This document shows positions 1-17,869 of a DNA stretch of 21,825 nucleotides, piece by piece. Within the stretch, counting starts at the first letter, position 1. Each line of letters starts with the position of its first letter. The DNA is from Chromera velia (Eukaryota; Sar; Chromeraceae): NCBI GenBank assembly GCA_018398765.1, contig JAHBMJ010001734.1, positions 5,001 to 26,825 on the forward strand, in the 5' to 3' direction. The position numbers and the translations under genes were made by a program. A model generated the notes under the pieces. The model was not told the DNA's origin, made no database searches, and was given only the letters and a program-made list of their open reading frames with translations.

Positions 1-1055
1 GCCTTCCTGTGTCCCCCCAAATCGATGTTGAAGTCCGCTGCGCCTCCTTTGTGGTGCATGCAGGTAACGCTCGGGTGACGATTCAGTAGGTCTGTCCTGA
101 GGAAGTGAGTGAAAGAACATCAGATGGCTTCACCTGCTTTCACAAATAGCTTTTTAAAAAGCTTTAAAGTACTAAACATTAACAAAAACAATGTACAGAC
201 TAGCAAATCAGTCTACATTTAAGTGAACAGACTCTGAATTTTAGAAAAAAATTTAAAGTAGGCCTTATACATCCTTACACACTATAAAAAATAGAAAAAC
301 AAATTTAAAAAACACATGAATTTTCAGTTTCTTTATGTTTTTTTATTTATCTAAACAAGAAAATATGTTTTTTTAATTAATAAAACACTCCCTGTAACCA
401 CTCTTTGCCGAAATTGCCGTTTGTGGGGGCGACCTTTATAAGACAAAACGGCGACAGTGCTTAAAGACACCAATAAATCACTTATCACTTATCACTAAAA
501 CAACAATTTAAACAATAATCGTTTCTAAGGTTGTTTAATTGTTTTTAAAATTGCTTATGATAGTGATAAAGAATCATAATATATTGGTAGGCCATTACAT
601 AAAGAAGTCGCTAGATTACTATATATATCTATATATTTTCCCCTGAATTTTTATTTTTTTTGTAGCTCTCTTCAAGTTTCAACAAAAACTCAAACAAAAA
701 GCATATTCATTATCACCATACTGATTATTGCTAGGATATTATAAGGATTATATTATATGTGTATATGATTTAAATCAATTTGAATACTTTATCAGAATTT
801 GTACTTAAACTATCATTAAAGTCATATATAAATTAAGAAACTTTTAAATGAAGCTAATGAGCTAGTTATAGCCTTTTTCACACTGCCAGTGCTACAGACC
901 TAGTATTCAAAATACAAAAACAAGTCTAAAATTTCTAAGTCAGATTGTTTAAATTTTGTTTAAATTCCATTTGATGACTCGGATCTGAAACTTGATTTGC
1001 TATAAGTATAGGATTTCCATTTTTCTTTTCATTTGCCCTATTCTGGCAGGAATAT
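1..1055. repeat. AT-rich dispersed repeat of about 1 kb, copy A (left end outside the window)
   Basis: This block matches 3705-4765 in the same orientation. Shared blocks include the stretch around GTGCATGCAG (55-64 against 3761-3770), AAGTGAACAGACTCTGAATTTT (near 222), TTTAAATCAATTTGAAT (near 769) and AGTCAGATTGTTTAAATTTT (near 938). Similarity ends around 1050, just after CTGGCAGG. No open reading frame of note lies inside and I see no terminal inverted repeats. Its left boundary is not visible because the match already holds at base 1. It could be a degraded non-autonomous mobile element or a segmental duplication. The family is not recognised. Confidence 0.6.
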
Positions 1056-1640
1056 AATACACACTCTAGCTGACTACAAGTAACGAGGAGAAAAGAAAGA
1101 GATTGGAGTAACAGGGGTAGTAGAGGAAGGGCAAACCCATCGGGTGACAAGCAGTAGAAACAACTGACCTTCATACCGTCTCCTCCTTCGATCGTAAACC
1201 CGACACGCCGCCCATGATGCAAAACGCTCTGCATACACCCAAGGAAGTATACAAGGTCCATTAGATAATAATAGTACAGAACAAAGCAAAGCAGACAAAA
1301 GAGGGAAGCAGGAGAAGCAACGGTTACCTTGCTGCACGAAGGGATTGATACAGTCTGAATGACTGACCTATATGACTGACCTTTGAAAAAAAGAACCGTC
1401 TATTCCTGTTTCGAAACAACGTGCACACAATTTCTGTAGTAAGAGTATATGAAGGGAGAGAGAAGTAAAGAAAGGAAGCTGGAAGGAGCGTGGACCTCCC
1501 AGCATGACCTCGCAAAGACAGAAACAAACTATGAACATTAAACCGACATTTACAAAGGCTATACAAAGGCCGCACATTTGTATGACCTCCCAGCTTTCCA
1601 ATAACAACTGCGGCGCTGGTGACTGGGAGTGAATACTAAG
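1056..1640. other. Unassigned stretch with weak exon-like signals on the minus strand
   Basis: Base composition is more balanced than on either side. On the minus strand an acceptor-like TGTATGCAG (near 1237-1229) and a donor-like GTATGAAG (near 1178) bracket about 50 bases that are open in more than one frame. The short reading frames here show no recognisable domain, start codons are uncertain and no coherent multi-exon model could be built. I treat it as intergenic, possibly an untranslated or decayed exon. Confidence 0.2.
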
Positions 1641-2725
1641 TGACTAAGTATAGTACGTATGATATAACTAGCTCGTTAGCTAAAAAGCTTACTGCATGCA
1701 TGGACAAAGACTATGCATGTTAAATTTTTTTCAACAAAATGAATAATAAAAACCTTGCGATCATTATTTTTCCACCAAAAACAAAACTTACGCCCCATAC
1801 TAATTTATCGATTGCATACAAAAAAAACGTGCTAGTTGATTTTTTGAGCTCTGCACTAAAAACTGCACGCCAATAATCTATATTGTATAGAAAAATGCAG
1901 GGTTGCTTTTCTACTAAATTTCTGGTTAGTAACAGGTGTAGTCTACCGGCAATTGCTGGTAACCGATAATAGCCTCAGTCTACCTTCCTTTTACTGACAA
2001 AAAAATAATAGAAATTAGGGCAAAAAAAAAAACTTTGCCTGCGGCGCTAACAGATGCGGCATGCATGATAAAACCCTCAATCATCACGGTGACACCGTCA
2101 AAAACATGTTTTTAGGTGTTTATTGACATTTGAAAAGCCTATTAACAAAAAAAAGGAAAAATGAAATAAAATAAAAAAAAATAAATTTTATAATTTACTA
2201 ATTTCAATTATTTTAACTGTTTCACCCCTATTAGGTCCTCTAAGTGACATAAAGTTCTAACAGCTCTGTTCAATAGCTACTCCTTTTTTCTTAACTCTGT
2301 TCTATCTCCTACTGTTCTGCTTCTCTGTATTAGGCCTTGAGCCGTCGTTTGAGAGCAATCAAAGTAAGGGACGGTAAAAGTCTACTTCTTTACTCCCTGG
2401 GCAAAAAATGAGGAGATAGTACGCAGAGGGCACTATGGACAAACCATCTGCTTCCAGTTGTATAATCTGCTTGCACACACCCAGCTAGGCTGTCTGTCCT
2501 ACCCAACACAATTCTTGATAAGGCGATGAATTCATTTTATGTTGTTTTTATCTAACTTCCTAGTACTAAGCTATAACATAAAAACTTGGATTCTACCACC
2601 ATCTTGCTTAGACTAGCTGTATTACAAACTGTATAATCAGTTTATATATGATCTCATATAGGCGATAGCTCTAGCACAGTAGTACTTCTTCAGACTATGC
2701 CACCTATGATTGATTGATTGACCTA
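1641..2725. other. AT-rich non-coding stretch with repeat fragments
   Basis: No credible coding region is present. Around 1828-1960 lies a fragment related to the array at 2880-3215: a CGTGCTAGTTGATTTTTTGAG word followed by a decayed palindrome CCGGCAATTGCTGG (1946-1959). Homopolymer A and T runs are frequent. A GATT repeat lies at 2708-2719. Nothing else is recognised. Confidence 0.5.
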
Positions 2726-2787
2726 TAATGGAGTGTTAGTGACTGTTAGAATTCTGCCAAGTCTTTGCCGACTACCAGCAAACTCTG

Positions 2788-2811
2788 CCGGTAATTACCG
2801 GTTACCGGTAA
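2788..2811. repeat. Adjacent perfect palindromes
   Basis: Positions 2788-2801 read CCGGTAATTACCGG, a perfect 14-base palindrome. They are followed directly by TTACCGGTAA (2802-2811), a second perfect palindrome. A decayed relative, CCGGCAATTGCTGG followed by TAACCGATAA, sits at 1946-1969. Both lie next to copies of the GTGCTAGTTGAT word, so the palindrome seems to be part of the same repeat family. Confidence 0.6.
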
Positions 2812-2879
2812 TGAAGCTTGTCTACCGCCAAAAAAATCGGCAACCCTGGAAAAATGATGATTGGGGTTTTATGAAAAAA

Positions 2880-3215
2880 AGCGTGCTAGTTGATTTTCTG
2901 AGCTTTGCACTAAAAAATGCGTCCGATTAATCTGTATTGTGTAGAAAAAAAGCGTGCTAGTTGATTTTTCAAGCTTTGCACCAAAAATAATGTAGAAAAA
3001 AGCAGGCTAGTTGATTTTCTGAGCTTTACAATAAAAAGCACGCCCCATTAATCTGTATATTATGTAGGAAAAAAAATGTGTTAGTTGATTTTCCGAGCTT
3101 TGCAATATAACCTGCACCCCAGTAATTGATTGTATAAAATAGTATTTGAAAATATATGCAAGTTGATTTTCCGAGCTTTGCATTAGAAATGATTAGAAAC
3201 TGCACCCCATTAAAG
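2880..3215. repeat. Degenerate tandem array of 50-80 bp units
   Basis: Five related units begin near 2881, 2952, 3002, 3077 and 3157. Each carries a core like GCTAGTTGATTTTCTGAGCT followed by TTGCA, a run of A, and often GCACCCCATTAATCTGTAT. Spacings are about 71, 50, 75 and 80 bases, so the array is irregular. A sixth related unit stands alone at about 1828. The units differ too much and have no constant spacer length, so this is not CRISPR-like. It is best described as a decayed minisatellite or the interior of a non-autonomous element. Confidence 0.65.
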
Positions 3216-3704
3216 TACAACTCTAGCTATGAGCTGTGACAGTCTCTTTGTTTGCATTCACTTTGGATACTGAGAGGGCAAGAAAGAAAAAAAAAAAGAA
3301 AGAAAAAGAGAAAGACAATGAGGGAATCAAAGAAGAAGACAGATGACAAAAAGCCTTAGAAAGATTCTGACTCTCTACCCCCCCTGTTTTGTTTGCTTGT
3401 CCCTCCTCATCACTCAATGTAAGTCAATGACTTGACTAACTTATTGTGAGAAAAATCAATGCAAGTGAATAGGTAATTTGAAACAATAAAAAAAAAAAAG
3501 GTGCCGTAAGGATAAGATTCTTTGGAAAAGAAAGGAAACGGAACAGAAAAGGAGAAAAAAAGGAAAAAAAAAGCTTGTTCTGTCAATTTGTACGAAAGAG
3601 CTTTGTCAGGAAATCGAATAGACTGCCCGGCCACCGTCGCACTTCGGTCCGTAACCCTTCAGTTTCTGGTTTCCGTGTTCTATCTCTCTTTGCTATATAC
3701 ATGT
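3216..3704. other. Non-coding stretch with two purine-rich tracts
   Basis: Purine-rich runs lie at about 3279-3325 and 3484-3572 (A-rich with G interruptions). They generate long Lys-rich or, on the other strand, Phe/Ser-rich reading frames of no biological meaning. No splice-consistent exon, start context or domain is visible. Confidence 0.5.
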
Positions 3705-4765
3705 ATGTCTTTCTGTGTTTCACCAAATTGATGTTAAAGTCTGGTCTGCTTCTTTTATTGTGCATGCAGATAATGTTCGGGTGTTGCTTCACTAGCCAGG
3801 TCTGTCCTCAGGATACCATTAAAGAGGGAGAAGACATCAAATAGCAAATTGAACAGATTGATCGAACAAATTTACTACTACTCTCTCACTGGAAGATTCA
3901 GTTGCATTATCAAATAACTTTTAAGAAAGACTATATATATAGTAATTAAACTAACTCCGGTGAGTCGACTCAGTCGAGTCAATTAGTCTATATTAAAGTG
4001 AACAGAGTCTGAATTTTAGAAAATGATTTAGAGGTCGCCTTGCGCCATTCAGTTTATTTTTTTTTTCATTTTTCTCTAGATTTTTCTAAACAACAAAACA
4101 CCTTTTTAATAAAGAACTCCCTATAACTTAGTTTATTATATATTAAAACAACCGTCTAAACAACTTGAACAGCTAGTTGTTTAATCAATTCTCAAATTGT
4201 TTATGATATATAGCAAAATTTAAATATAGCAAGAATCACAAGAATCATGATGTATAAGCAGGCCATTAAATAAAACAATCACCAAATTACTATATGTTTC
4301 TGAGTATACAACCGTCCTAGATAACTGCACAACTTAATATGTACTTTTATTATTATTTTAATATTTTTTCAAAATTAATTTTCTTGTAGTGCAAGGCCTA
4401 TAGGGCCTAGTATAGGCTATAGTTCTTTTAACAAAAACTAGAACAGAACTTGAAAGCGTATTCATTATCATGATTCTGGTTTAATATTACTATAGGATCA
4501 TTACATGCGCACATACAATTTAAATCAATTTGAATGGTTCATTAGAAATTACACTTAAACTATTGTTAAAGATACACGTTAATGAACTTGAATGACGTCT
4601 ATTTTAAATCAAGTACATTCAAAATGCACTCGCAAGTCTAAAATTTTCAAGTCAGATCGTTTAAATTTTGTTTGAATTCCATTTTAAATTTGATTTGCTA
4701 TAATCGATCAGCATTTTCATTTTTTTTCTCATTTGCCCCATTCTCAGACTGGCAGGCATATGCTC
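3705..4765. repeat. AT-rich dispersed repeat of about 1 kb, copy B
   Basis: This is the second copy of the element seen at 1-1055, in the same orientation and about 3.7 kb away. It is alignable from TTCTGTGTTTCACCAAATTG (3710) to CTGGCAGGCATA (about 4749-4760). Relative to copy A, many differences in the first 80 bases are C-to-T or G-to-A (for example TCGAT/TTGAT, TTGAAG/TTAAAG, AACGCTCGG/AATGTTCGG). Copies A and B are strongly diverged by substitutions and indels, so the duplication is old. No coding content is recognised. Confidence 0.6.
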
Positions 4766-5091
4766 AGTAAGGTGAAACCGCTTCAGTTTTGGCAATTGCG
4801 TTTTTCCCTCCGTGCAGTGAAAAGTTGTTTCAGTAGTTCCTTTGAGTTCTTGTTTCTTTAAAATTCCCTGAGAAATTTCCCTCCTTTGCTCTATCTAGTA
4901 TCTTGCGTGCAAGCCCGGGACCTATACCCGGGGGGGCCTTCGAGCGCCGGTCTTGCCTTTGAGAGAACCGTTCGATCACGCACGGTCTTTCAGAGCTTTC
5001 TGATGATTGCGCTGTCTCTCTCTGCTCCCTCTCCCTGCTCCCCCTTCCTGCTTGTCGTCTGCTTTAATTCTCCTGACTCCGTGCGAAACCG
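4766..5091. other. Spacer and probable 3' untranslated region downstream of the minus-strand kinesin-like gene
   Basis: The base composition switches here from AT-rich repeat to the balanced composition of the gene island. The minus-strand stop codon of the kinesin-like model is at 5092-5094, so transcripts would continue leftward into this stretch. No canonical polyadenylation signal stands out. The plus-strand reading frames here are shadows or lack support. Confidence 0.35.
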
Positions 5092-6990
5092 CTAACGGTA
5101 CATGCAGCCAGCAACAGCGGGACGCCCAACACCCCCTGCCTGGAGTGAATGAGGGGGGTACAGGAGGTGCTGGTGCTGCATTGGCTGTGGCTGCCTGTTC
5201 TGCTGCTGCTGCTGTTGTGGTGGAACGGCAGAAGAGGGAAGGAGTGTGTGCCAAGCGGGAGGGAGAGCAGCCGTCGCATGTGCAGCCTTCAGAGGAAGTG
5301 CGGATGGAGGTTTTGCATACCCAGCGCCCATCTTCGCAGTCTGCGTTTGTTGCTGCTGTTGCTGTGGCTGTGCTTTGTGCTGGTATTGATACGGGTGCTG
5401 TGAGATCCCGGGGGGGGATAGACGCTTCACGAGAGCATTGGACATTGGAGGAACTGCTGGCGTGGTGGTCAAGTTGAGCGAGCTTCGAGAATGAGGCAGG
5501 ATTGCATGGGGGGGCATCTGCATGGCTGTCTGCGGCTGGGGGTGAGGAGGATGCGGATGAGGGAAGGAAATTCTTGGGCCTCGGTGAGGGGGGGAGAAAT
5601 GCACAGTGACAAGGGGGCCATTTGCATTTGAGAGTAGAGGGCCGTGAGGGCCTGGTTGGTTCATGTTGGTATTGACTGCCTCTGACTTGAAGGCAAATGC
5701 GGGAGGAATGAGAGCAGTGGGAGGGAGCGAAGAGGGCGCATGAGTCTGTCCAGACGACGGATCTGCCTTCTCATTTTCTTTTTTGCCCCCCTTCCCTGAT
5801 CCCCTGTCTTCCTGGCGACACGGAGTCTGGTGAGTACTGGTCTGGCGGGCAGCTTTTGGAGTTCTATTCTTCTGTTCGAATTGGGCAATGCAACGATTGA
5901 GGGGGTCTGACCCTTCGGGCTTGGAAGTGAGAGACGTCTTCTTGTTCCGCTTGTCTGTATTGAGGGGGATTCCAGCGGCACAAGGGCCTCTTGCAAACTC
6001 TTGTCGATCTCTCAGTAGACTCTCCAAGGCAGACGCGAGAAATGCAGGCACAGGTGTGAGCGCTCTCGAGCCTCTGTTCCTAGACTCGGAGCGTGATGGG
6101 GCTGTTTGCTGCTGTTGTGCGACCAGGGGGGCGACTGCTGTGCCTCTCTCTCTCTCTGTGCCAGAAGCATGCGTGTCACCCTTACCCTTTGCAACAGCCA
6201 TGCGACGACGGTGCTGTTCCTCTGCACGAGCAGCCCGGACATTCGCGGCCTTTCGTGCGTTTGCCTTGTTGGGCGGGGAGATCAAAGCTCGGAGACCTTG
6301 AGAGCACCTTGGAAGTTCTCCAGAGAGAGGGGAGACGTTGACAGGGTTTGCATGCTGTTGGGTTCTGCCTGTGGGAGTGTTGCGCTTGGCAGTGGCGGGG
6401 GTTCTCGAACCTGCTGATCTCGCTACGTGCTCCCTCGGTGGTGTGAGGAGACGATTTTTGAACATGTCAATGGGGGTTGGAGTGTCGTTTCTCTCAGACT
6501 CCATTCGGTTGTGGTTCTGTTTGGTGTTGTCGATCCTGGAGAAGGTAAAGGGAGGAGAGACGGCTCTGGAAATGAGCGGAGGTCGAGGACGGGGGGGGTT
6601 CTCTTCCAGCAACCTTGAGGCAGAGGCAGAACGGGTGTGTATCTGCAGTCTGTTGGAAAGTTTGTTCGGAGCATTTCCAGATGGCACCGCAGAAAATCGA
6701 GCTGGGGTTGCTTGGAGCCTGCCCTGTCTTCCTGGCGGCGTGGTCTCTCTTTCTCTCTGGTGTCTCTTCGCGGAAGAGGAGACGTTCCCTTGAGGAGTCT
6801 GGCTGGCAGTGTGGGGGGTTTGTGCGAGAGCGGACGGGATGGTTGCCCTGTTCGGAGTAGAGGGAGAGCTTCGCGTCTCCACTCTGCCTGTTAGGTTTTG
6901 GCTGAAGGTTGAGAAGGTGAATCGAGGCTGCTTGTGTGGGGTCTGGTTTGTGTGGGGAGCGATCTCGTTGGTCATTTGCTGTTGCGGTCG
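5092..6990 (-). other. Exon 10 of the kinesin-like gene: Gln/Pro-rich tail, part 2 (could be a separate gene)
   Basis: This is an open frame of 632 codons after the acceptor CATGCTTTTTGCAG at 6991, joined in phase 0 to the donor at 7331. It is rich in Pro, Gln, Ser, Arg and Thr, with several poly-Gln runs near the C-terminus and a basic helix NVRAARAEEQHRRRMAVAKG. That helix resembles NVRLRVEERRARWR in exon 9, which mildly favours one protein. The alternative is an independent gene starting at the ATG at 7056, which would give 654 residues with no recognised domain. The stop is TAG at 5094-5092. Confidence 0.55.
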
Positions 6991-9900
6991 CTGCAAAAAG
7001 CATGGGGGAAAGGGCGCCGAGGTAGTCAAAAAACATATGCTCTTAGGCATGTGCATAAAAGGGAGAATTGTTTTCTTTCATCCTCCATCCCCTTCTGATT
7101 TTTCATCCTTTCTTAGAGGCAAATCTGTTGACAGATTTCCGGGAAAGCAAAAAACAAAAGAAACAAAAGCGAAAGAGAAAGCGATTCACGGAGGAAATCA
7201 GGGACCTGTGAGAGACGAAATGAGGGAGAGAAGACTCCCAACTCATAGTTTGGAAACAGTGAAACAAGACGAGGTCAACCTTCTCTAGACAGACTCACTC
7301 CTCCCCTAAGGAGAAATTCAAAGAAACTGACCGAAACTTTCCACACAGGTCCAATGACACTTCCATGGGGGTGCATCTGAATCCCCGTGTGTGTGTGGTT
7401 CAGCGGCTGCTGTGGGTGTACGATGTTGGTTTCCCTGTGTTGTCTGGCTGGAGTGAAGTCATAGGTAGTCCTCATCGGAATTCCAGTCTGGTAACCAGGA
7501 GCATTGGGAGCTGATGAACGTACCGATGCATTTTCAGGGGTGGCCGGATTGGAGTTCAGTTGTGCAAACGGGGGCTGAGACGGCAGTCCTTCGTTGGTGT
7601 CGAGGGAAAGAGAAGGGAAACTGCGGGACCGAGACTTTGCCATGGAAGCGCCCCCCCGTGGAGCGGGACCACAGGGATGATTTTGAGGGGGGCCTCCAAT
7701 CGGCTTTTCCTTCTTTTGTGGCGGCTCGGTTTTCCCTCCTGCCCCTCCTTCACCTGCGGATGCTGCTACCGGCATTTGTGAGAAACGGAAGGAGACCTTT
7801 CCTTTCCTTTGAATTTTGTCATCAGCTCTTCTCAACCCTCCAATTCTGCATGGCACATCTGATACCTTTCCTTGACTTCCATGTGTGTCTCTCTCTTTCT
7901 CTTTCTTGATTCCTGACGGGCCCTCCTTCTCCTTCTCCTTCTCCTTCTCCTTTTTCATCGGGCTCTTTGACTTTCCCTGAGCGCATCCTCGTGCTGCAGC
8001 TCCTGTTTGATTATGCTGTCTCTGCTCGGCTCTCCATCGGGCTCTCCGCTCTTCTACCCGAAGTCGGACATTCGCGTTCAAAGTCTTGCCTGCTGCTGGC
8101 GGGACATCCTCTTTTGGTTTTTTGCCTCCCTCAATAGCCCCATCTGCTAGAGTCTGCATCCGATCCCCCCCCTTTTTCAGGACTTGCAAGAGAGACTGGG
8201 GAGGAACAAAGGGGTCCTGTCCTCCAGGGCTCTCTGCTTCGGCTGCTGCTGCTGCCTTCTTTGCCGCTTCTTTTGCCTCCCGTCTCCTGGGCAGATTACC
8301 TGGGGGGCCTAGAAGACCCCCCTGTGTGCGAGCGTTGGCTCCACTGCCCCCTTTGGGCTTTTGTGTCCCTTTTTTGACAGTCTGCTTTCGGGCTCTCTGC
8401 CCTCCCGTCTGCGAGATATTCCCCTTGTTCGTTCGTTCACCTGCTGTCTGTTCGTGAGAAGAAGAGAGCGAATCTTTTGTGTCCAGAGGCGCTGCTCTGT
8501 CAGCAGATGACGAAGAAGAAGAGGGGGCGTCTGCGGGTGTTCCCTGGACATCCCCCCTCATGACCCCAGAAAGACCTTTCTCAGGAGTCCCCACACCCCC
8601 ATTAATGATGCCCCCTCCCCCCCTTTTTCTACTGGAGGAGAGAGGAAACGCAACTTGGGGAGCAGGACTGGAAGCCCCAGAAACCAGAGGCGACTCTTCG
8701 GCAATCGGCCCGAATCCGTCGAGTACAGCCAGGCCGTTTCGAGAAGGGGACGTAGAGTCAAGGTAAGCAGGGAAGTTGACGCCTAATCGACAGGCGGTGG
8801 CTGTTGCTGAGGGTGTGGGGGTGTGTTTTGCAACTTGTTGCGACAGGGTGAGAGGGGCAGAAGACGAGCCGTCCCCCCCCTCTGTGTCGGCATCCTTCTC
8901 GTTGCACGGAGGAGAATTGCTGCTATTCACCCTTGCAAGCTGCTGGGGCGGGACGAAGGCGTAGAAATCGGGGGGACTCATCAGTTGAGCCTGAAGATAC
9001 CGGACACTCCTTCTGCGACTGCTCACCTGCATGCAGCCAAAAAAAGAATGAAGGGACTTTTAAAGGGTCTGAGGAAGACTTGTGGACATAAAACAATCTG
9101 TCAGCCAGACGATGAACAAGACTTGTTTTTTTCTTCCCTCCTTACTTTCTTGCTTCGTACATTTTCTTTCCTTTTCCCTCCCCCCCTTCCTTCCAGCCTC
9201 CCTTCCTCCTTCCATTTCTTTTCATCTATAGAGGCGGTCAGTCGATTGAGGAAGGATTTGGAAGGAGTTTGCGATACCTCCTGACTGACTGACCGACCGT
9301 GGAGGCTGTCCCAAGACTTCGGCCCCCCTGAGGGTCTCCTGGCGATGCGGGCAGAGCACCCAGGGCTGAAGAGGAAGAAGAGGAGCGACTCGACGAAGTG
9401 GCGTTGGAGACGGACATCGAATCGTTCGGTTGATTGGCTTTCTCTTTCTCTCCCGTCTCCCCCTTTTGGTTCTCTCTCTCAAGTGATTCCAGTTGAGTCG
9501 CCAGGGTGCTGTTATATTCACACCGAACGGCCTCCTCAACAGACGCTCTGTGGGTGGCACACGACAGAGCTCTGAGGAAGCCCTTGAAGAATTTGCACCA
9601 CAGGATGCTTTCTCGAACCTGCAGGCAGACAGGGGAGGGGAGGGATGAACAATTTGTGGTGAGTCAGTCCCATCAGTAAGGACGGACTGGAGATGGAGGG
9701 AGGGAGGGAGGGAGGCATCCGAGATTACAAGCAAGACCGGGACCTGAGATCGACCTTCCTTGGAAGGCTGCCCTGCTGACCTCCTTGTCATCTCCTGATC
9801 GCAGTTTGAGGTTGAGAATCGGAACTATGTTCATTCTGCATGCAAACAGAGAGAGAGCTCAGAGATATAACTAACTGCATAGGAGAACTGGCGGAAGAAA

Positions 9901-10001
9901 AGTGAATTCACTGAGAAGAGTCGGAAACGAGAAGTGACAAACCATCGTAGAAACAGAGTCGGAGGATAAAAGATGGCAAAGAGGGGCAAAAAGAAGGCAA
10001 A

Positions 10002-10034
<33 letters not shown>

Positions 10035-13000
10035 TAGAGAGGCAGATAGAGTCCGAGACTAAGGTTGGATAGATTAGGGAGAAACAGACCTGGGCACGAC
10101 ACCCGATACCGCGCGGACTAACAGCCGGTGTGCTGGGGTGTGCTATGCATACACGAACCCTCAAGCGTAAGGAAACACACACACACACACACACACCGCG
10201 ATAGAGAGAGGCAGAGCGATGCAGCGGCTGGCGGGAGAGAAAGAGCCAATGTCGACTCACGTGTTGGGGCACGAGAAAATTGGTTTGAGGAGTTTAGAGA
10301 GCACCGAGTCTTCATAGGAGATTTCCTCTCCCAGAGGAGACCAGACTCCCCTACTCTTCCAGTAAGCCAAAGAGGAGAAGACAGAATTTCGACACTCTTC
10401 GTCGAGTTCGTCCAATTCGGGGAGCACGGGAAAGTGGACGATCTGAAAACAACCAGGGGAAGAAAATACAACTTTATTTGACTCTGTATCATAAAAGTCA
10501 TTTGTAGACTTTGCTCTCTCGCGAAACTTTGCAGGAAACCTCAAAACCTGAGATCAAAACCAGAGTAGATTTGTCTGTACGCTCTCATCCCTACCATCAC
10601 ACAAACAGGCCGGGTGAACGGATGATACACGAAGTTGCGCAAGTCCGTTGTTTCACCTTAGTTGCCGAAGGTTAGACGTCTCTTTCCTTTGCAAAATCAC
10701 ACCTCTGTACCGAACCGTCTCGTCTTTGCCACAGTCTCTTTCTCTTCCTAGCAAATTGCACTCTGAGCGTTCCAGTCTGCAGGCTCACCTGAGAGATGAT
10801 CAACCGGAGTGCCTGCAGAGAGTCCGAAATCGCTTGGCTGACGGGGTCACTCGGGGCACCTGCAGAGCTAAGTGCCATGGCAGTGGCGACGTCGACAAAA
10901 GACAATGCTGCCCTCTGTCCCGTTGCTCTCTTTGTGACAACCACCGAGAGCATCGAGTGCCCTCTTGATGTTCTCGAATTTGTCGGAAGTGACTCCACGC
11001 TTCTCTGGCTGAGGCTGCAACGGAGAAGGGAGAGCGCCTCTGTCTCGCTTGAGACCTGGGTTCTCGACAGACCGTTCACTGAGAACAAACCGAATCTGCA
11101 GACAGGCAGGAAGGAAATGCATAAACAAGGCTGGTGTAAACACGGAAAGCAAAGAGTGGAGGTCTAAGAAGTTATGGCGAAGAAAATCGCTTCTGACCAA
11201 AAAAAGAGTATCTGCCATTTTTCATGTTCGATCTTGTCCTTTTCATATCTTCCCTCCCCTCCCCCCCCGCCTTGCTTTTCGTCCACTCCTTCCTCACCTG
11301 TCCTTGACAACAGCGAGTTGCCGTCTTGCTTCTGGAGCCTTCAGAAGATCAATCACAGAACCCCCTAGCACCTCGAGGAACACCATCTCGACCAGAAAGG
11401 GACACTCACCAACAGACTCCCCCACCCCGACTCCTCTGCCGAGACTGGTCGAGGATGCCGTGCCGAAATGGGAGAGCGCACACCCTGGATTGCTGCTGTT
11501 GTTGTTGTTCGTGCCATAATCGCCCCCCCATCCCCCTTTTCCCTCTCCCCCCCCTTCTTTCTTTCCAAAGACGGCCTCCCCTTCCCCCCTGAGGACCTCA
11601 CGAAAAAGATGGGACAACGCCTGAGAGGCCACGCCTCCGTCTGAAGAACCAGAAAGATCTGCTGAGAGGTCACCTGACAAAGACAGACCGGCAGACACGG
11701 ATGCAGGCAGACAGCCAGAAGAAGAAAGGGCTTGTTCGGAATCGCACAGATCGTTCACCTTTACTTTACGCAAAGGAGAATGGCAAAAAGGTTTCCTCCA
11801 GACTAACGGGAAAAAGGACGAAAGTAAAAGACAAAAGTAAAAGACAAAGTGAAAGAACAACGCATCCTACACATACAGAAAACAAAGAAAAAGCCCGCAA
11901 CGGAGAAAAAGCGGCAGACTCAACGGCAGCGAGCAAAAGGACCATGAACTGTCGACAGCGGGTCGTTGCATCCACCGTGCATCACCATGGAGCTGCGTAC
12001 ATGGACAATGACTGCAACGATAAGGCGATGTGAGTGAAAACGAAACGGTTAATTCTTTTGCGAAGATTCGTTGGAGAGGCAGGCCAGTTGTGCCCTAGCT
12101 GTCGACAGACTCACGAACCGAAGAGAGTATGAGACTTTCCGGTCCCAGTGCCCCCCAGTGTCACGAAGACGCTGCTCTTCTGCGCTTCCACCACGGCGGC
12201 CACGCAGGGTGCCCCCACTGTCGCGAAGAAATCGGAACGTTGTGCCCCTGCAGACAGACAGACAGGCAGACAGACAAAGAGGCAGACAAAGAGGCAGACA
12301 GACACACTGAGAACATGAATTGGGGGTCATCTGGCATCAAATCACACACCCAACGTCCGTGGAGCATTTGACGGGCTCAAAGGACGATTCAGGCGTGCAC
12401 AAATGCAGGGAGCGGGACGGAAACTCACAAACATTGTTGAAACTGAACGCTATATATGTCCCAGAGTCAAACAGCTTCAAAAGATTTGTGCAAGTGCCAA
12501 AAAAGTGCAGAGGTCGAGAGAAAAGAGGAAACCTACTGGTCGAATGAAACATCACGTGGTGCATAGCGTGGTTCAGTCGAAGAGACCGATTGGGATGGAC
12601 AGAAATACAATGAAAGGATGGTGCACGTGTGTTGTATGTTGAAAAGGTTTCCCTCTTCAGAGAAATATAAAATTGCATGCAGTTGTGCTCAACATATATA
12701 CATACCTGTGACCCTGTGATCTGTAAGGCTGGATGGATTCATTTGTACTTTTAACTTACCAGGAGCGAAAACATGGTCATACTCAAAAGTCTGTTTTTCG
12801 GTCTCTGCCTGGAGCTTTGCGCTTTTGCTGAGACGACTGTTCTTTCTCGTGTTTGCAGGCACCGTCTGTTCTCCCTCTGACGTCTTCAGAACGTTGCCAT
12901 CAATAAAAATGCTCGCTTGGTGTCTTTGTCGTCGGCCTTTGGTTGCTGCAAATACCAAAAGACCAACAGGACAGTCGCATACTCAAGAGAGGTTTGCATT

Positions 13001-13171
13001 CATATATTTGTATGTGTGCTCTGAACAACACATCGCTATTCACTGTTCCTATTGCCTACCGTTGGACGACAGCACCGACTCCGGATGGAATACGCAGACG
13101 TTCTTGCTCAAATCTGCGGTGGAGGGCTTTACCTCACTTGGTATGATCGGAACAACGTTGTACATGGACAT
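5092..13171 (-). CDS. Kinesin-like protein with a degenerate motor domain and a long low-complexity tail (10 exons)
   Basis: I assembled ten minus-strand exons with matching phases: 13171-13060, 12945-12760, 12247-12119, 11673-11298, 11095-10789, 10442-10261, 9835-9781, 9618-9278, 9018-7332 and 6990-5092 (about 1757 residues). The start is the first ATG after an in-frame TGA seven codons upstream. The motor domain spans about residues 1-470. FEYDHVFAPG (about 91-100) precedes the P-loop GGTGTGKSHT (131-140), which looks able to bind nucleotide. FLVEMVFLEV and VIDLL (235-253) match the motor strand before the switch regions. NSRTSRGHS (307-315) is switch I. SFVDVATAM (333-341) stands where DLAGSE should be. 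ISYEDSVLSKLLK (411-423) matches the PYRDSKLTRLL block. A short coiled coil (about 467-510) follows. The tail is rich in Ser, Pro, Gly, Gln and Lys. Kinesins are microtubule motors, but loss of the switch II Gly and Glu, and of the N-terminal RxRP, suggests weak or absent ATP hydrolysis. The exon 3/4 junction and the last two joins are the least certain. Confidence 0.75.
7332..9018 (-). other. Exon 9 of the kinesin-like gene: disordered tail, part 1
   Basis: A single large exon codes for about 562 residues, open in one frame from an acceptor at 9019 (AGCAG; the alternative GCATGCAG at 9027 is also possible) to a donor GTCAGT at 7331. It is rich in Ser, Pro, Gly and Lys. Visible elements are two copies of the short motif FVPPQ (residues 584-588 and 833-837), an Ala/Glu/Lys helix RRREAKEAAKKAAAAAEAE (about 807-825), a basic helix NVRLRVEERRARWRAEQRQ (879-897), and a Lys-Glu dipeptide run (919-928) encoded by a hexamer repeat at 7923-7952. 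No enzymatic domain is seen. Without the intron at 6991-7331 the frame would stop at 7275. Confidence 0.6.
7923..7952. repeat. Coding hexamer repeat (CTCCTT on the plus strand)
   Basis: Five tandem CTCCTT units lie inside exon 9 of the kinesin-like gene. On the coding strand they read as AAGGAG and give an alternating Lys-Glu run. Such repeats are prone to length change without frameshift. Confidence 0.8.
10004..10032. repeat. CA dinucleotide microsatellite
   Basis: About 29 bases of uninterrupted CA/AC lie inside intron 6 of the kinesin-like gene (9836-10260). On the transcribed strand this is a GT/TG run. Confidence 0.95.
10175..10196. repeat. AC dinucleotide microsatellite
   Basis: A second, shorter AC run of about 22 bases lies in the same intron as the run at 10004-10032. 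Confidence 0.95.
12248..12305 (-). repeat. CTGT/CTGC tetranucleotide-like run forming a splice acceptor tract
   Basis: On the minus strand this is a run of CTGTCTGCCTCTTTGTCTG-type sequence. It ends in CTGTCTGTCTGCAG directly before exon 3 of the kinesin-like gene, so a simple repeat supplies the polypyrimidine tract. Similar CTGCCTGTCTGCAG ends precede exon 5 (11096) and exon 8 (9619). Confidence 0.75.
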
Positions 13172-13430
13172 TCTGGCTGTACTTGGCAGAGATCAAGAAC
13201 GAATCGATGACTGTGGCGTTTCACACGTGTCGCCACAAGTCCAAAGAAATTGGCAGGTATGTGTAAGTGGCTACGCTGTTGGCGGAGTACTTCTGTTATC
13301 TGTAGAGCTGGTTTGGCTATGACAGGCACTGATGTGTAAGATAACAAAGGAAGTCGCACGCACTAGGTCAAGAAATCGATCGACACGTATATATATATAT
13401 GTATACATCTTCGTATATACGTACGGGATA

Positions 13431-13448
13431 CACCCAACCAGTTGGGTG
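13431..13448. repeat. Perfect inverted repeat (8-bp arms, 2-base centre)
   Basis: The arms CACCCAAC and GTTGGGTG are separated by CA. The site lies about 260 bases upstream of the kinesin-like start codon. It could be a binding site for a dimeric protein. No known factor is assigned. Confidence 0.5.
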
Positions 13449-13620
13449 AGTGCCTCGGGGGGCCATTTAGGGGGTCGGCCATAATTTGATTGCATGATGA
13501 AAACCATCAGGGGCTTGGGCATGTCTTGCCTGCAATGCATGCATGGGCAAATGGCGGGGGCCACGGCAACGTGCGCAAAATATGCTTTTCGGGACCGCGC
13601 ATGAACAGATATGCAATCAA

Positions 13621-13716
13621 CTCCGTGCGAGTTACTTGAGGGGCACGTATCATGAAGAGCGCAGTATATAATACTATAATGCGATCGCGGCTCCGTGCGA
13701 GTTGCTTGAGGGGCAC
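13621..13716. repeat. Pair of 26-base direct repeats
   Basis: Positions 13621-13646 and 13691-13716 share CTCCGTGCGAGTT, one variable base (A or G), then CTTGAGGGGCAC. That is 25 of 26 identical, with starts 70 bases apart. They sit in the divergent spacer and may be regulatory or remnants of a small tandem duplication. Confidence 0.8.
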
Positions 13717-14206
13717 ATTTTGGAATTTGGGCGACAACGGAGACAGAACCGAATCCCCCCCCCAAAAAATGAAAAAATGCGTTATGCGGATGCGTGCGAT
13801 CTCAGGGCCTCTCGGCTGATCTCAGCAGAGCTGAGCTGCCCCCCGAGGCGATATGTATACAACTTTCTGATTCATTATATATCTGTTATAATCCCGTCTA
13901 AAATAAAAATGTAAGGAATGCCGAGCTAAATGGGGGCCCGGAAGGCGCAAAATCCCAGAAAATGTGAGGTGTTCCATGGATGGTGCCGCGCGCGTTGCAC
14001 AGCCCGTGCCGCCCGTCTACACGCACGTCATGGGGGTTGCAGGTGCCGCCGGGTAAGTGAGTTCCTGCGATGGCGGACGCACTTACGCATGTACTCACTT
14101 GACTCAGCGCGCAATGCGCGCGAACTGACTTGTTTTATTTTTTTTTTTCATTAATTAATTTCATACAAGTTTGTTCGCGCGATGAAAAGTTTTTGAAAAG
14201 TTTTGT

Positions 14207-14330
14207 CATGCATGCAAGCGTTACTGTATATACGCCAACATCAATTAACATTGCATGTACGCGCATGCATGCAAGAAGGTCAGACATGCAGACATGTATA
14301 TACATGCAGTCCATGCAACATGCATTCATG
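14207..14330. promoter_or_regulatory. Cluster of TGCATG(CA) motifs upstream of the secreted EEP gene
   Basis: TGCATGCA occurs at 14209-14216 and 14266-14273. TGCATG or ACATGCA variants occur near 14252, 14284, 14303, 14312 and 14319, all 250-370 bases before the ATG at 14577. TGCATGC-type motifs are known in apicomplexan promoters and as targets of some ApiAP2 proteins. Applying that here is inference. The word also occurs elsewhere in this window, including splice acceptors, so it may partly reflect genome-wide composition. Confidence 0.35.
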
Positions 14331-14576
14331 TGCACTGCGAAAAGCAGCTCCGACTTTTCGTCCTCTTCAATGCCATGTAGCATGTAGTAGCATGTCTGAC
14401 ACGACCTTTTCTGAGGACAGAATCAACAAGTCTTTTCCTTTCACTTTTCCCTTTCAAAGCTTCCTCGTTTCTCTTCTAAAAACGCTCACTGCGAGAAGAG
14501 TTGTTAAACACCAGTTGTGCACGAGTGTGTCCACCTTTCCCTCCTTCAGCCGACTAAACAAGCAAGCCAGTCAGTC

Positions 14577-16319
14577 ATGGTCAACTGTAAGATCGCATCC
14601 TCTTACAGGACAGCAACAGTCTTTTGCTTTCTGCTCTGGCTGTATTCTGCCCAGGCATTCAGCGTGGTCACCGTCAACTCACTCGCACAAACAAGTTGCC
14701 AGGCCAAACCAACGGGCATGCCCAGCTTCACGCAGAACGACATCAACAATAAGAAAGGATGGCTCCTGACGATGCTGACCGAACAGATCGCCAACAAGAA
14801 CATTGACTTCGCCACAGTGCAGGTGAGTGTTTGTGCAGCCAGCGACACGTACGCAGACTAACAAGGTCTTCTTCGTGAGAAAGAAAAGACGATCAAAGAC
14901 TTATAAAACGTTCAATGACTCTCTCACGTATCGTTGCTGCAGGAAGTCGACGCAGCTCCAGGGAGCGGCAAGAGCAATAAAGACTCCTCCATTGACGACG
15001 TCATGGCCTGGGCCGAGGATGAGGAATACATCGCCATCCACACACAGCCCAACCCTAACGCCAAACCCTCAGACAAGGCTCCCAATGACGTCGCATTTGT
15101 CCTCCTGAAGAAGAGCTCCTTCCCCGACGCCACAGTCAACTCTTGCACCTTCAGAAGCGATAAGGAGACCGGCCACCTATCCAAATGGTTGTGGTGTGAA
15201 GGTCTGAAGATTCAAGGCGGCCAGCCAATCAACGTCCTGGCGGGACACGCGCCCTCCTCCGGCCCCGATTTCAATAACGCCGAATTCCAAGAGAGGTTGA
15301 AGGCCGCCACGATGATTGTTGGGGACATGAACATGGACGCCTCAGGTCTCAAGGCAGGCACGTCAAGCGTCAATGCCGGTGACCTGACCGTCTATCCCGA
15401 TGCAGACAGTGGTTTGGTGACCACGGCAAAAGACGCTTTCAAGTACAGAAAGCTCTCCCAAGCCATGGAGAATACCCACGGCTTTCAGAACGCCGTAGCG
15501 GATGACTCCGGGGAGACCACTTGCACAGACATCCAGTGCAAACCGAAACAGCAGCAGCAGGAGGATACGGAATCCGATCAGCAGGACGATGAACCTTGCT
15601 GTGACCTCACTAACGAGAAGCACCCTTACATGGTTACCATCGACGGGACCCTTCAGAACGACAAGAATGTCTGCAAATACGCGTCCCGCATTTGTGCGTT
15701 GGCTGACAAGAAGAACAAGGCAGAGCTCAAGATGTTGGCAGGGTCCGATGGTGACACCACCGACAGGCTTCGTGAGTTTGTTGACAAGATCGATCTGAAG
15801 AGTCTGTACACAAGCATCGGGTGTGCCGACACAGACTGCGGCTCCCTTTCCCAAGACAACCTCCTTGATCATATGCAGAGAACACTCATGCAAGAGGATC
15901 TCGTTGCCATCAAGGCGCCCCTGTCTTTTGAAACGAAATCAACGCCCTATGTCTACCCCCTTGAAATGACCACTGCCGCTATTCTGAAAGAAAACGACAA
16001 CGGACAAACGAAACAACAAGCACAGGCAAGAGGATTCCCCACGGGGGCCTGGCCCTCTGACCACTTTCTTGTTGCAGTCGAAATTGTCGTACCTGAAGAA
16101 GAGACGAGGGCAGAGATAGACAAGATGGATGATGAGATGCAAAACACAGACGACAATTCAGATGAAGAGCAGGAAATCTCAAAGCAGCGGGATGTAAATC
16201 CGAGTATGAAATCCGAGCTAGATCAGATTCAGCCAACCGTCAAAACAAACACAGATGGAGGGGCGGGATTTCTCGCTAAGCGCGTGGATGCAGTCGTTCG
16301 TCGTCACTCGGTGAAGTAA
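14577..16319 (+). CDS. Secreted endonuclease/exonuclease/phosphatase (EEP) family protein, CCR4/nocturnin-like (2 exons)
   Basis: Exons 14577-14822 and 14943-16319 encode 540 residues. The intron is 120 bases, GTGAGT to CTGCAG, phase 0. The first 27 residues form a signal peptide (basic start, hydrophobic TVFCFLLWLYSAQA, likely cleavage before F28). EEP elements follow in order: VVTVNSLAQ (30-38), the QE metal-binding motif VQEVD (81-85), VAFVLLKK (132-139), AGHAPSSG (182-189), the GD-N motif MIVGDMNMD (206-214), HPYMVTIDGTL around 353, and WPSDHFLVAVEI with D455 and H456 (453-463). LAQ, QEVD and PSDH resemble the CCR4/nocturnin/Angel/PDE12 branch, which removes poly(A) or cleaves phosphodiesters. 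A secreted member would more likely act on extracellular or vacuolar nucleic acid or phosphoesters. Eleven cysteines in the mature chain suggest disulfides. The C-terminal tail is acidic and has no recognised domain. All catalytic residues expected for the fold appear present. Substrate is unknown. Confidence 0.85.
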
Positions 16320-17869
16320 GCAAATGGACGGCCTGTCAGGATGTGAGAAAAGAAGTTTGAGCATCAAGGCAGACACGCAGAAACTTCAAATGAAAGAATA
16401 GCCTCACCTTGACAACTCAACAGAGGCTCGAAAAAGAAAAGAAAGCTTTGAGAAAATGCCAACGCTTGAACGTGACACATACGCAGCGCATGATGGCAAC
16501 ACCACAGTTTTGCTTCTTAATTTCGGCCCGCCCTTCTTTTTTCCCAAAGACACCCGCCCGCCCGCCCCCATGCTCTGCATGCCATCAAATGCATTCGTCA
16601 GACTGTGTCCTCTTTACCTTGAAGGGTGTCTTGTGGGCTTTGCCACCGTTTCTGACTAGAGGTATGAATGATGCAGTGAGCAAGTGAGACGGTCAATTAA
16701 TTGAATCTTTTTTGTTCAGTAGGTCACGTCTGTGAAGAAAATGCACACACGACAACACAGAGAAGCATCGATCTCATTGAGACACAATTTTGTTTTCCCT
16801 CTCCACTAACGAATTGCATCGTTTGCTCAAATTGAATGCAAACCTCTGCCAGTGCCCTGCCACCAAGTACGGAAACCACAGGGACACAATGATAATGCTG
16901 GCTGACAAATTGCTGAAACGAATCCCAAATTTGCGGCGTGAAAATTGATTCTCATCACAGAGTGAATGATCCTTGAAAACACTGGCATGCAACGTCACAA
17001 ATGAGCCGAAAACGTCCACAAACCCAAGAAAGTGATTTTGTACATGCAAACCTCACGTATGTGCTGTTGTACCGCGATTGAGTCAATCCTGCTGGCAATC
17101 CTGTCAGAGTCTGAAAACGAATGCAGATGCAGATTTGCAATTCAACTGAACCGCTCTATGTCAGTGTATAACCTGAGTTGCGTATCAGATTTGCGACGAA
17201 TTTTGCCTGCTGCCGAATGCCAATCAGCAAACGAGGCGGCATTTCAGGCGAAACACAAGTCGTTACACGACTCAAACATTTTTGAAATATACTAGCCTCT
17301 ATCTGTGCATCAGTACCTTTAGATTTATCTATACAAATAATATAATACTCTAGATACTAATACTTACAGTGATATACTGAGTGCCAGAGTGTATGATATT
17401 GCGCGGGCTTTGCACATAGAATAGTGTATGAAGATAAAATCTCATGTCCTCCCAATACTTCCATTTATGATGTGACCTATTTACATCCGAGCTAGCATCC
17501 GAGTGTATCACTACGTCGCCATTTTATGCGACCTCCCTAAACCTAACTACCACTTGAAAATTCAAGCCGCATTTTGAATAAACATGAAAGTCCGCGTTAC
17601 AAGCGCGGATCATTTACGGTGTCTTGAAAGCCAAAGCCGCATATCTGGACGGTGTTTTGACCGTCTACGCCGAAGCTCTTGAAAAACGATGCCACAGATA
17701 GAGATCATCTTGATTATATTTTTTCAAGTGACACTTAGGTTCAGGGAGGTTTTTCATGCATTACTAAATGCATTGCCACATATCAGAAACGCGGTTATTA
17801 TTTAAAGATATAAGTATGCGTGTTTATCTTAATATGTGTATGTTGACAATTTAATCCGAAATTGATCGT
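16320..17869. other. Intergenic stretch with no supported gene
   Basis: This region follows the EEP stop codon. The only reading frames of note (for example minus strand 16774-17049) begin at non-ATG codons, lack splice support and show no domain. Two short hairpins lie close together: TCCGCG-loop-CGCGGA (about 17591-17609) and GACGGT-loop-ACCGTC (about 17649-17666). They do not fit a tRNA. From about 17290 the DNA becomes AT-richer. Confidence 0.45.

Follow-up and report, generated by a model that had tools for sequence, protein, structure and literature searches.

What remains of a kinesin motor when its P-loop is kept and its switch II is not? This question is raised by a locus of Chromera velia within a stretch of 21,825 nucleotides (GenBank assembly GCA_018398765.1, contig JAHBMJ010001734.1, forward-strand positions 5,001 to 26,825), hereafter called the window. 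An initial annotation had read here a kinesin-like motor with the P-loop GGTGTGKSHT, TSRGH in switch I and DVATAM in switch II, and six-frame motif scanning and translation found GGTGTGKSHT, NSRTSRGH and DVATAM as described, all of them encoded on the minus strand, which the annotation had left unstated. The annotated interval (13171–10789) begins exactly at an ATG, whose first base is 13171, and stops at 10789, where the exon with TSRGH and DVATAM ends and GTGAGC follows. Phase-matched GT/AG exon joins lead to an open spliced product, and the full candidate model with the downstream exons has ten exons; its length, 1769 to 1812 codons including the stop, depends on which of the three exon 3/4 joins that we tried is used (Table 1). 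Donors were scored by a general consensus table. The donor of the exon 3/4 join was weak whichever choice was made, so that about 42 residues preceding GGVASQAL are uncertain; the first base of exon 4 may be 11795, 11802 or 11673. Exon 1 was assigned solely by position and splice phase and lies outside the Pfam match given below. No paper on this gene was found among the literature matches listed, which came from a partial library.

Table 1. Positions in the window of the exons and motifs of the kinesin-like gene model.
Feature	Position	Strand	Description
Candidate exon 1	13060..13171	-	ATG and start of first strand; donor ACG/GTAGGC
Exon 2	12760..12945	-	Ends FEYDHVFAPG (kinesin FxFDxVF)
Exon 3	12115..12247	-	alpha1 and P-loop; ends at 12115 or 12119 (donor uncertain)
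P-loop GGTGTGKSHT	12126..12155	-	In exon 3
Exon 4	11298..11795	-	alpha2, Gly-rich insertion, FLEVL replacing kinesin EIY segment
Exon 5	10789..11095	-	Switch I, switch II and helix 4, all in a single exon
Switch I TSRGH	10957..10971	-	SSRSH in kinesins
Switch II DVATAM	10876..10893	-	DLAGSE in kinesins
Candidate exon 6	10261..10442	-	Acidic loop 12 and SYEDSVLSKLL (alpha5-like); splice phase
Candidate exon 7	9781..9835	-	beta8 region; splice phase only
Candidate exon 8	9278..9618	-	alpha6-like VRESILWCKFFKGFL, coil-like segment, Ser-rich linker
Candidate exon 9	7299..9018	-	Low-complexity basic tail, or separate gene; open frame, weak join
Candidate exon 10	5092..6990	-	Pro/Gln/Thr-rich basic tail up to stop

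Elsewhere in the window, a two-exon gene on the plus strand (14577–16319) has a signal-peptide-like start (MVNCKIASSYRTATVFCFLLWLYSAQA) and contains DFATVQEVD across its join, followed by GDMNMDAS and SDHFLVAVEI, which are reminiscent of an endonuclease/exonuclease/phosphatase fold; two Pfam families alone, GspA_SrpA_N and RXT2_N, were returned for it, and neither reached its cut-off. Between the two divergent genes, inspection revealed two near-identical stretches of the form GTGCCCCTCAAG[C/T]AACTCGCACGGAG (13720–13620, minus strand), which resemble repeat remnants. The G+C content per kilobase is 30–40% over positions 1–5000 vs 47–58% over 5001–17000, and tandem arrays with units of about 38 and about 50 bases lie at 2874–3037.

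The Pfam comparison suggested in the initial annotation bore out the kinesin assignment. The product of the first nine exons matched the Kinesin family PF00225 with 124.3 bits (cut-off 29.3, E 6.9e-36), residues 64–429 falling on profile positions 16–295, and two parts of the head taken alone were also recognized (end of exon 2 to start of exon 4, E 3.5e-14; end of exon 4 with exon 5, E 7.5e-18). Judged by these scores, the similarity to kinesins is far beyond chance, and the homology is firm only to about helix 4 (profile positions 16–267). A Vik1/Cik1-type motor homology domain (PF16796), a kinesin fold without a nucleotide-binding site, matched with 27.9 bits (cut-off 27); this assignment was rejected because PF00225 scores far higher and the Walker A motif GxxxxGK[ST] is present as GGTGTGKS. 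Among the 146 distinct PDB sequences matched by phmmer at E up to 1, the best 60 were all kinesins by name, with Klp61F (kinesin-5) at the top (E 2.9e-15) and the chromokinesin KIF4 at E 4.9e-13; the top nine spanned just 59.3 to 47.6 bits, a kinesin-14 among them, and with scores so nearly flat no kinesin family was assigned. No relative was confirmed when the kinesin-1/Eg5 alignment was compared with viral contigs and the head itself with viral and prokaryotic contigs, collections that say little on this point. Three MAFFT settings were used to align the head with human kinesin-1 and Eg5; identity to kinesin-1 was about 24% of aligned positions (76/315 in one setting). Over columns common to human kinesin-1 and Eg5 (residues 43–268), 40/104 were identical here and 55/104 identical or conservative, values that describe a broad divergence from kinesins.

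The claim that the rest of the fold is retained held for one part of the head, namely profile positions 16–267; the exons for alpha5 to alpha6 lie outside the annotated interval and gave a different result. These exons 6–8 (10442–9278) were assigned by splice phase and weak alpha5/alpha6 look-alikes, and an in-frame stop follows exon 8 unless it is spliced. On their own they matched no Pfam family at E up to 10, and their score on a two-sequence profile was equalled by 117 of 1000 shuffles and by 94 of 691 window frames. They lifted the Pfam score from 122.9 to 127.6 bits, and four of eight shuffled versions that had been made gave 122.2, 123.0, 124.8 and 127.1. Their kinesin similarity is thus not clearly above shuffled controls, and for this reason the acidic loop 12 of candidate exon 6 and the substitutions R278E and K281V in its alignment carry little weight. 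Any holding of microtubules by the head would depend on a surface beyond the firm homology.

Further downstream, the longest open frame in 5092–9059 measures 661 amino acids (maximum of 200 dinucleotide shuffles, 408), and candidate exon 10 matched nothing in Pfam at E up to 1. The exon 8 to exon 9 join has a poor donor and uses the second AG, so the tail may be another gene; if it belongs, the candidate neck and tail together carry a net charge of +79. Thr-Pro occurs 21 times in the tail vs 9.6 expected, a count that none of 1000 shuffles reached, and Ser-Pro is not enriched (14 vs 14.6 expected). Other repeated pairs in the tail frames (5092–9018, minus strand) are QQ, 13 vs 6.0 expected, and PP, 26 vs 14.9 expected.

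Within the head, switch I and switch II share one exon whose flanks match kinesin on both sides, and the alignment with kinesin-1 and Eg5 confirmed the substitutions in both switches. In kinesin-1 numbering, which is used throughout for this head, the switch I pattern NxxSSRSH is replaced by NSRTSRGH, keeping N198, S202, R203 and H205 and carrying S201T and S204G, and the switch II pattern DxxGxE is replaced by DVATAM. TSRGH is the milder change of the two: position 201 still has a hydroxyl, and both Ser202 and Arg203 are retained. In addition, the segment preceding the P-loop reads VFVTLGGT in place of IFAYGQT and is longer by one residue. A splice that restores DLAGSE, the alternative against which the annotation was to be judged, was looked for and rejected: the motif scan found DLAGSE in none of the six frames of the whole window, and the spacing from D231 to G242 already equals that of kinesin-1, so that no intron is needed between them. 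A scan of minus-strand 11700–10200 likewise returned no [DEN][LIVM]AG, AG[ST]E or [LIV]DL[AGS].

The annotation had also stated that no RxRP motif precedes the first strand, which agrees with candidate exon 1, where neither arginine is encoded; MAFFT places VFHP at this position, and NVVP fits equally by eye. The arginines of RxRP contact adenine, and in their absence the affinity for the base would be lower. Three RxRP frames occur in minus-strand 15500–13060, none of them a credible exon. The one near 13739 contains the first-strand-like IRFCLRCRP and was rejected as an upstream exon because it has no ATG and no AG acceptor between the upstream stop and the motif; those near 14875 and 15015 were rejected since they meet a stop no more than one residue from the motif, and overlap the plus-strand gene. 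Beyond 15500, RxRP was sought in the narrower form [RK]x[RK]P[LFM].

Two groups of residues were assembled, after the alignment had been seen, from PMC4924600 and PMC4383081 (cited from excerpts, as are all papers below). Group A holds the contacts to Mg and nucleotide (K91, T92, R190, S201, S202 and D231, where K91 is the salt-bridge partner of D231), and group B the closed-switch network with the gamma-phosphate contact (Y138, R203, G234, E236, E250 and N255). The chemistry of group A is kept at 6/6 positions, with K91, R190, S202 and D231 identical and T92S and S201T conservative. On the other hand, group B has lost 5/6 (Y138L, G234T, E236M, E250Q, N255S), R203 alone being kept; E250 and N255 adjoin a two-residue alignment gap, and their partners here are approximate. 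For the contrast between the groups, Fisher p was 0.015 when conservative changes counted as kept and 0.24 when identical residues alone did so. In the background 49/104 columns were lost, a proportion that group B does not greatly exceed.

In kinesin-1, Gly234 touches both catalytic waters as well as the gamma-phosphate, Glu236 makes a latch with Arg203, and hydrolysis is strongly inhibited when this latch is mutated (PMC4924600). Since both residues are lost here, hydrolysis should fail, and the expectation of the initial annotation that ATP would not be hydrolysed normally is supported to this extent. Its other expectation, poor nucleotide binding, is opposed by the retained chemistry of all six group A positions and by the kinesin-1 E236A monomer, which takes up ATP with an on-rate of 5.6 per s per uM (wild type, 6.6) and hardly hydrolyses it (PMC12005725). 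That mutant and KIF3B E250Q, altered at the homologous switch II residue, likewise keep the P-loop while the switch II Glu is lost (PMC12005725, PMC11043552), and by analogy an intact P-loop beside a dead switch II would be expected to hold nucleotide. Unlike the present head, which also lacks Gly234 and coupling residues, both are single changes in otherwise complete motors. The altered, longer IFAYGQT segment and the absent RxRP could weaken nucleotide binding.

The open reading frame bears on whether such a protein is maintained. Exons 2–5 run through 332 codons with no stop. In simulated neutral decay, 16/300 runs remained stop-free at 20% changed residues, 2/300 at 30% and 0/300 at 50%, with mean stop numbers of 3.2, 4.8 and 7.6, respectively. 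This argues for a maintained protein and against a pseudogene, as the initial annotation had proposed, and for selection that acted after catalysis was lost, assuming that the catalytic and coupling changes accumulated slowly; we infer such lasting constraint solely from the open frame in one genome. By codon usage the true frame could not be told from the others (in-frame 0.074; one reverse-complement frame 0.077). Taken as a whole, the earlier interpretation stands in its loss of hydrolysis and its maintained frame, and is not supported in its poor nucleotide binding.

We consider that the gene probably encodes a kinesin-derived pseudo-motor, that is, a hydrolysis-dead fold that still binds nucleotide and acts as a scaffold. 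The head would adopt the kinesin fold as far as helix 4 or beyond, and it would grip Mg-nucleotide through Arg190, Asp231, the hydroxyls at two switch I positions and a Walker A motif that is intact. With Gly234 and Glu236 substituted, and with their partner residues Tyr138, Glu250 and Asn255 gone, the lytic waters would not be positioned and the latch between switch I and switch II would not form. ATP turnover and stepping would be absent; nucleotide in the pocket would keep a fixed fold stable, and the protein would work by binding partners through this fold, possibly together with the basic Thr-Pro-rich tail. More tentatively, and as a suggestion that we would not ourselves expect to hold, evolution may have fixed a natural pseudo-motor in one nucleotide-bound state, discarding the latch, the gamma-phosphate sensor and microtubule coupling and keeping all of the Mg and phosphate ligands, so that nucleotide would serve as a structural cofactor or ATP/ADP sensor and not as fuel.

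How does this head compare with known inactive kinesins? Kif26b has neither IFAYGQT nor DLAGSE, has no ATPase activity and binds microtubules constitutively (PMC3387196), and both Kif26a and Kif26b are thought to lack ATPase activity (PMC3387196, PMC13228590). The comparison with KIF26 made in the initial annotation is fair at the level of motifs, as both segments are missing here in their exact letters (VFVTLGGT, DVATAM); this exact-letter loss may be shared by chance and would not in itself establish membership of kinesin-11/KIF26. The Walker A core GxxxxGKS is intact in the present head, which was compared with Kif26b through the published description of the latter. Trypanosome KIN-B is likewise a protist kinesin predicted to be inactive, without switch II and many helix 4–loop 12 residues; unlike the present head, it is also reported to be without the P-loop and switch I motifs, and its coiled-coil domain reaches kinetochores on its own (PMC10987093). 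Cos2 and Smy1 are recorded as highly divergent or thought to be non-motile (PMC2867816, PMC3387196), and one survey set aside 166/1624 kinesin-like sequences as the most divergent (PMC2867816).

Other explanations of the same residues differ mainly in what the head would bind. It might be trapped with ATP in a rigor-like state, binding without splitting it and staying clamped on microtubules as a static cross-linker aided by the basic tail. Kinesin-1 E236A does trap ATP, with a Kd estimated at 4 nM for the heterodimer rear head in the microtubule-bound state, a value that its authors give with caveats, noting that for wild type it may be too low (PMC12005725), KIF3B E250Q decorates microtubules (PMC11043552), and the charge of the candidate neck and tail would suit such a role; we nevertheless think it unlikely, as Gly234 is gone too, the couplers E250 and N255 are lost, and loop 12, in an admittedly uncertain exon, is acidic and without R278 and K281. 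At the opposite extreme stands an adaptor of the KIN-B kind, whose head would bind neither nucleotide nor microtubules and would work only through partners. The degenerate head of trypanosome KIN-B showed no co-sedimentation with microtubules (PMC10987093), and the present head is broadly diverged (40/104 shared columns identical), lacks the RxRP arginines and has an altered IFAYGQT. Its Walker A motif and the kept Mg and nucleotide chemistry, set against the reported loss of the P-loop and both switch motifs in KIN-B, make this improbable to us.

A pseudogene in decay, or an erroneous gene model, could account for the weak donors after exons 3 and 8, for exons 6–8 that do not clearly beat controls and for codon usage that is not frame-specific; it is difficult to reconcile with exons 2–5, which are stop-free with phase-matched GT/AG joins where the decay simulations averaged 3.2–7.6 stops, and we regard it as quite improbable. 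We give hardly any credence to the idea that the kinesin is active by means of an unusual catalytic site, even though the P-loop, Ser202, Arg203 and Asp231 are kept, because DVATAMALSSAG offers no acidic residue after the Asp to stand in for Glu236, Gly234 is also lost, and latch mutation strongly inhibits hydrolysis in kinesin-1 (PMC4924600).

The nucleotide-holding pseudo-motor that we favour would be surprising to a limited degree, since inactive kinesins as such are already known (KIF26, Cos2, VAB-8 and KIN-B); among them, the present head would stand out by its kept grip on nucleotide. If correct, nucleotide grip would be kept while hydrolysis and microtubule coupling are lost, so that two halves of kinesin chemistry would have been separated in nature. 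The protein, likely a cytoskeletal scaffold, would then provide a natural test of which residues each half needs.
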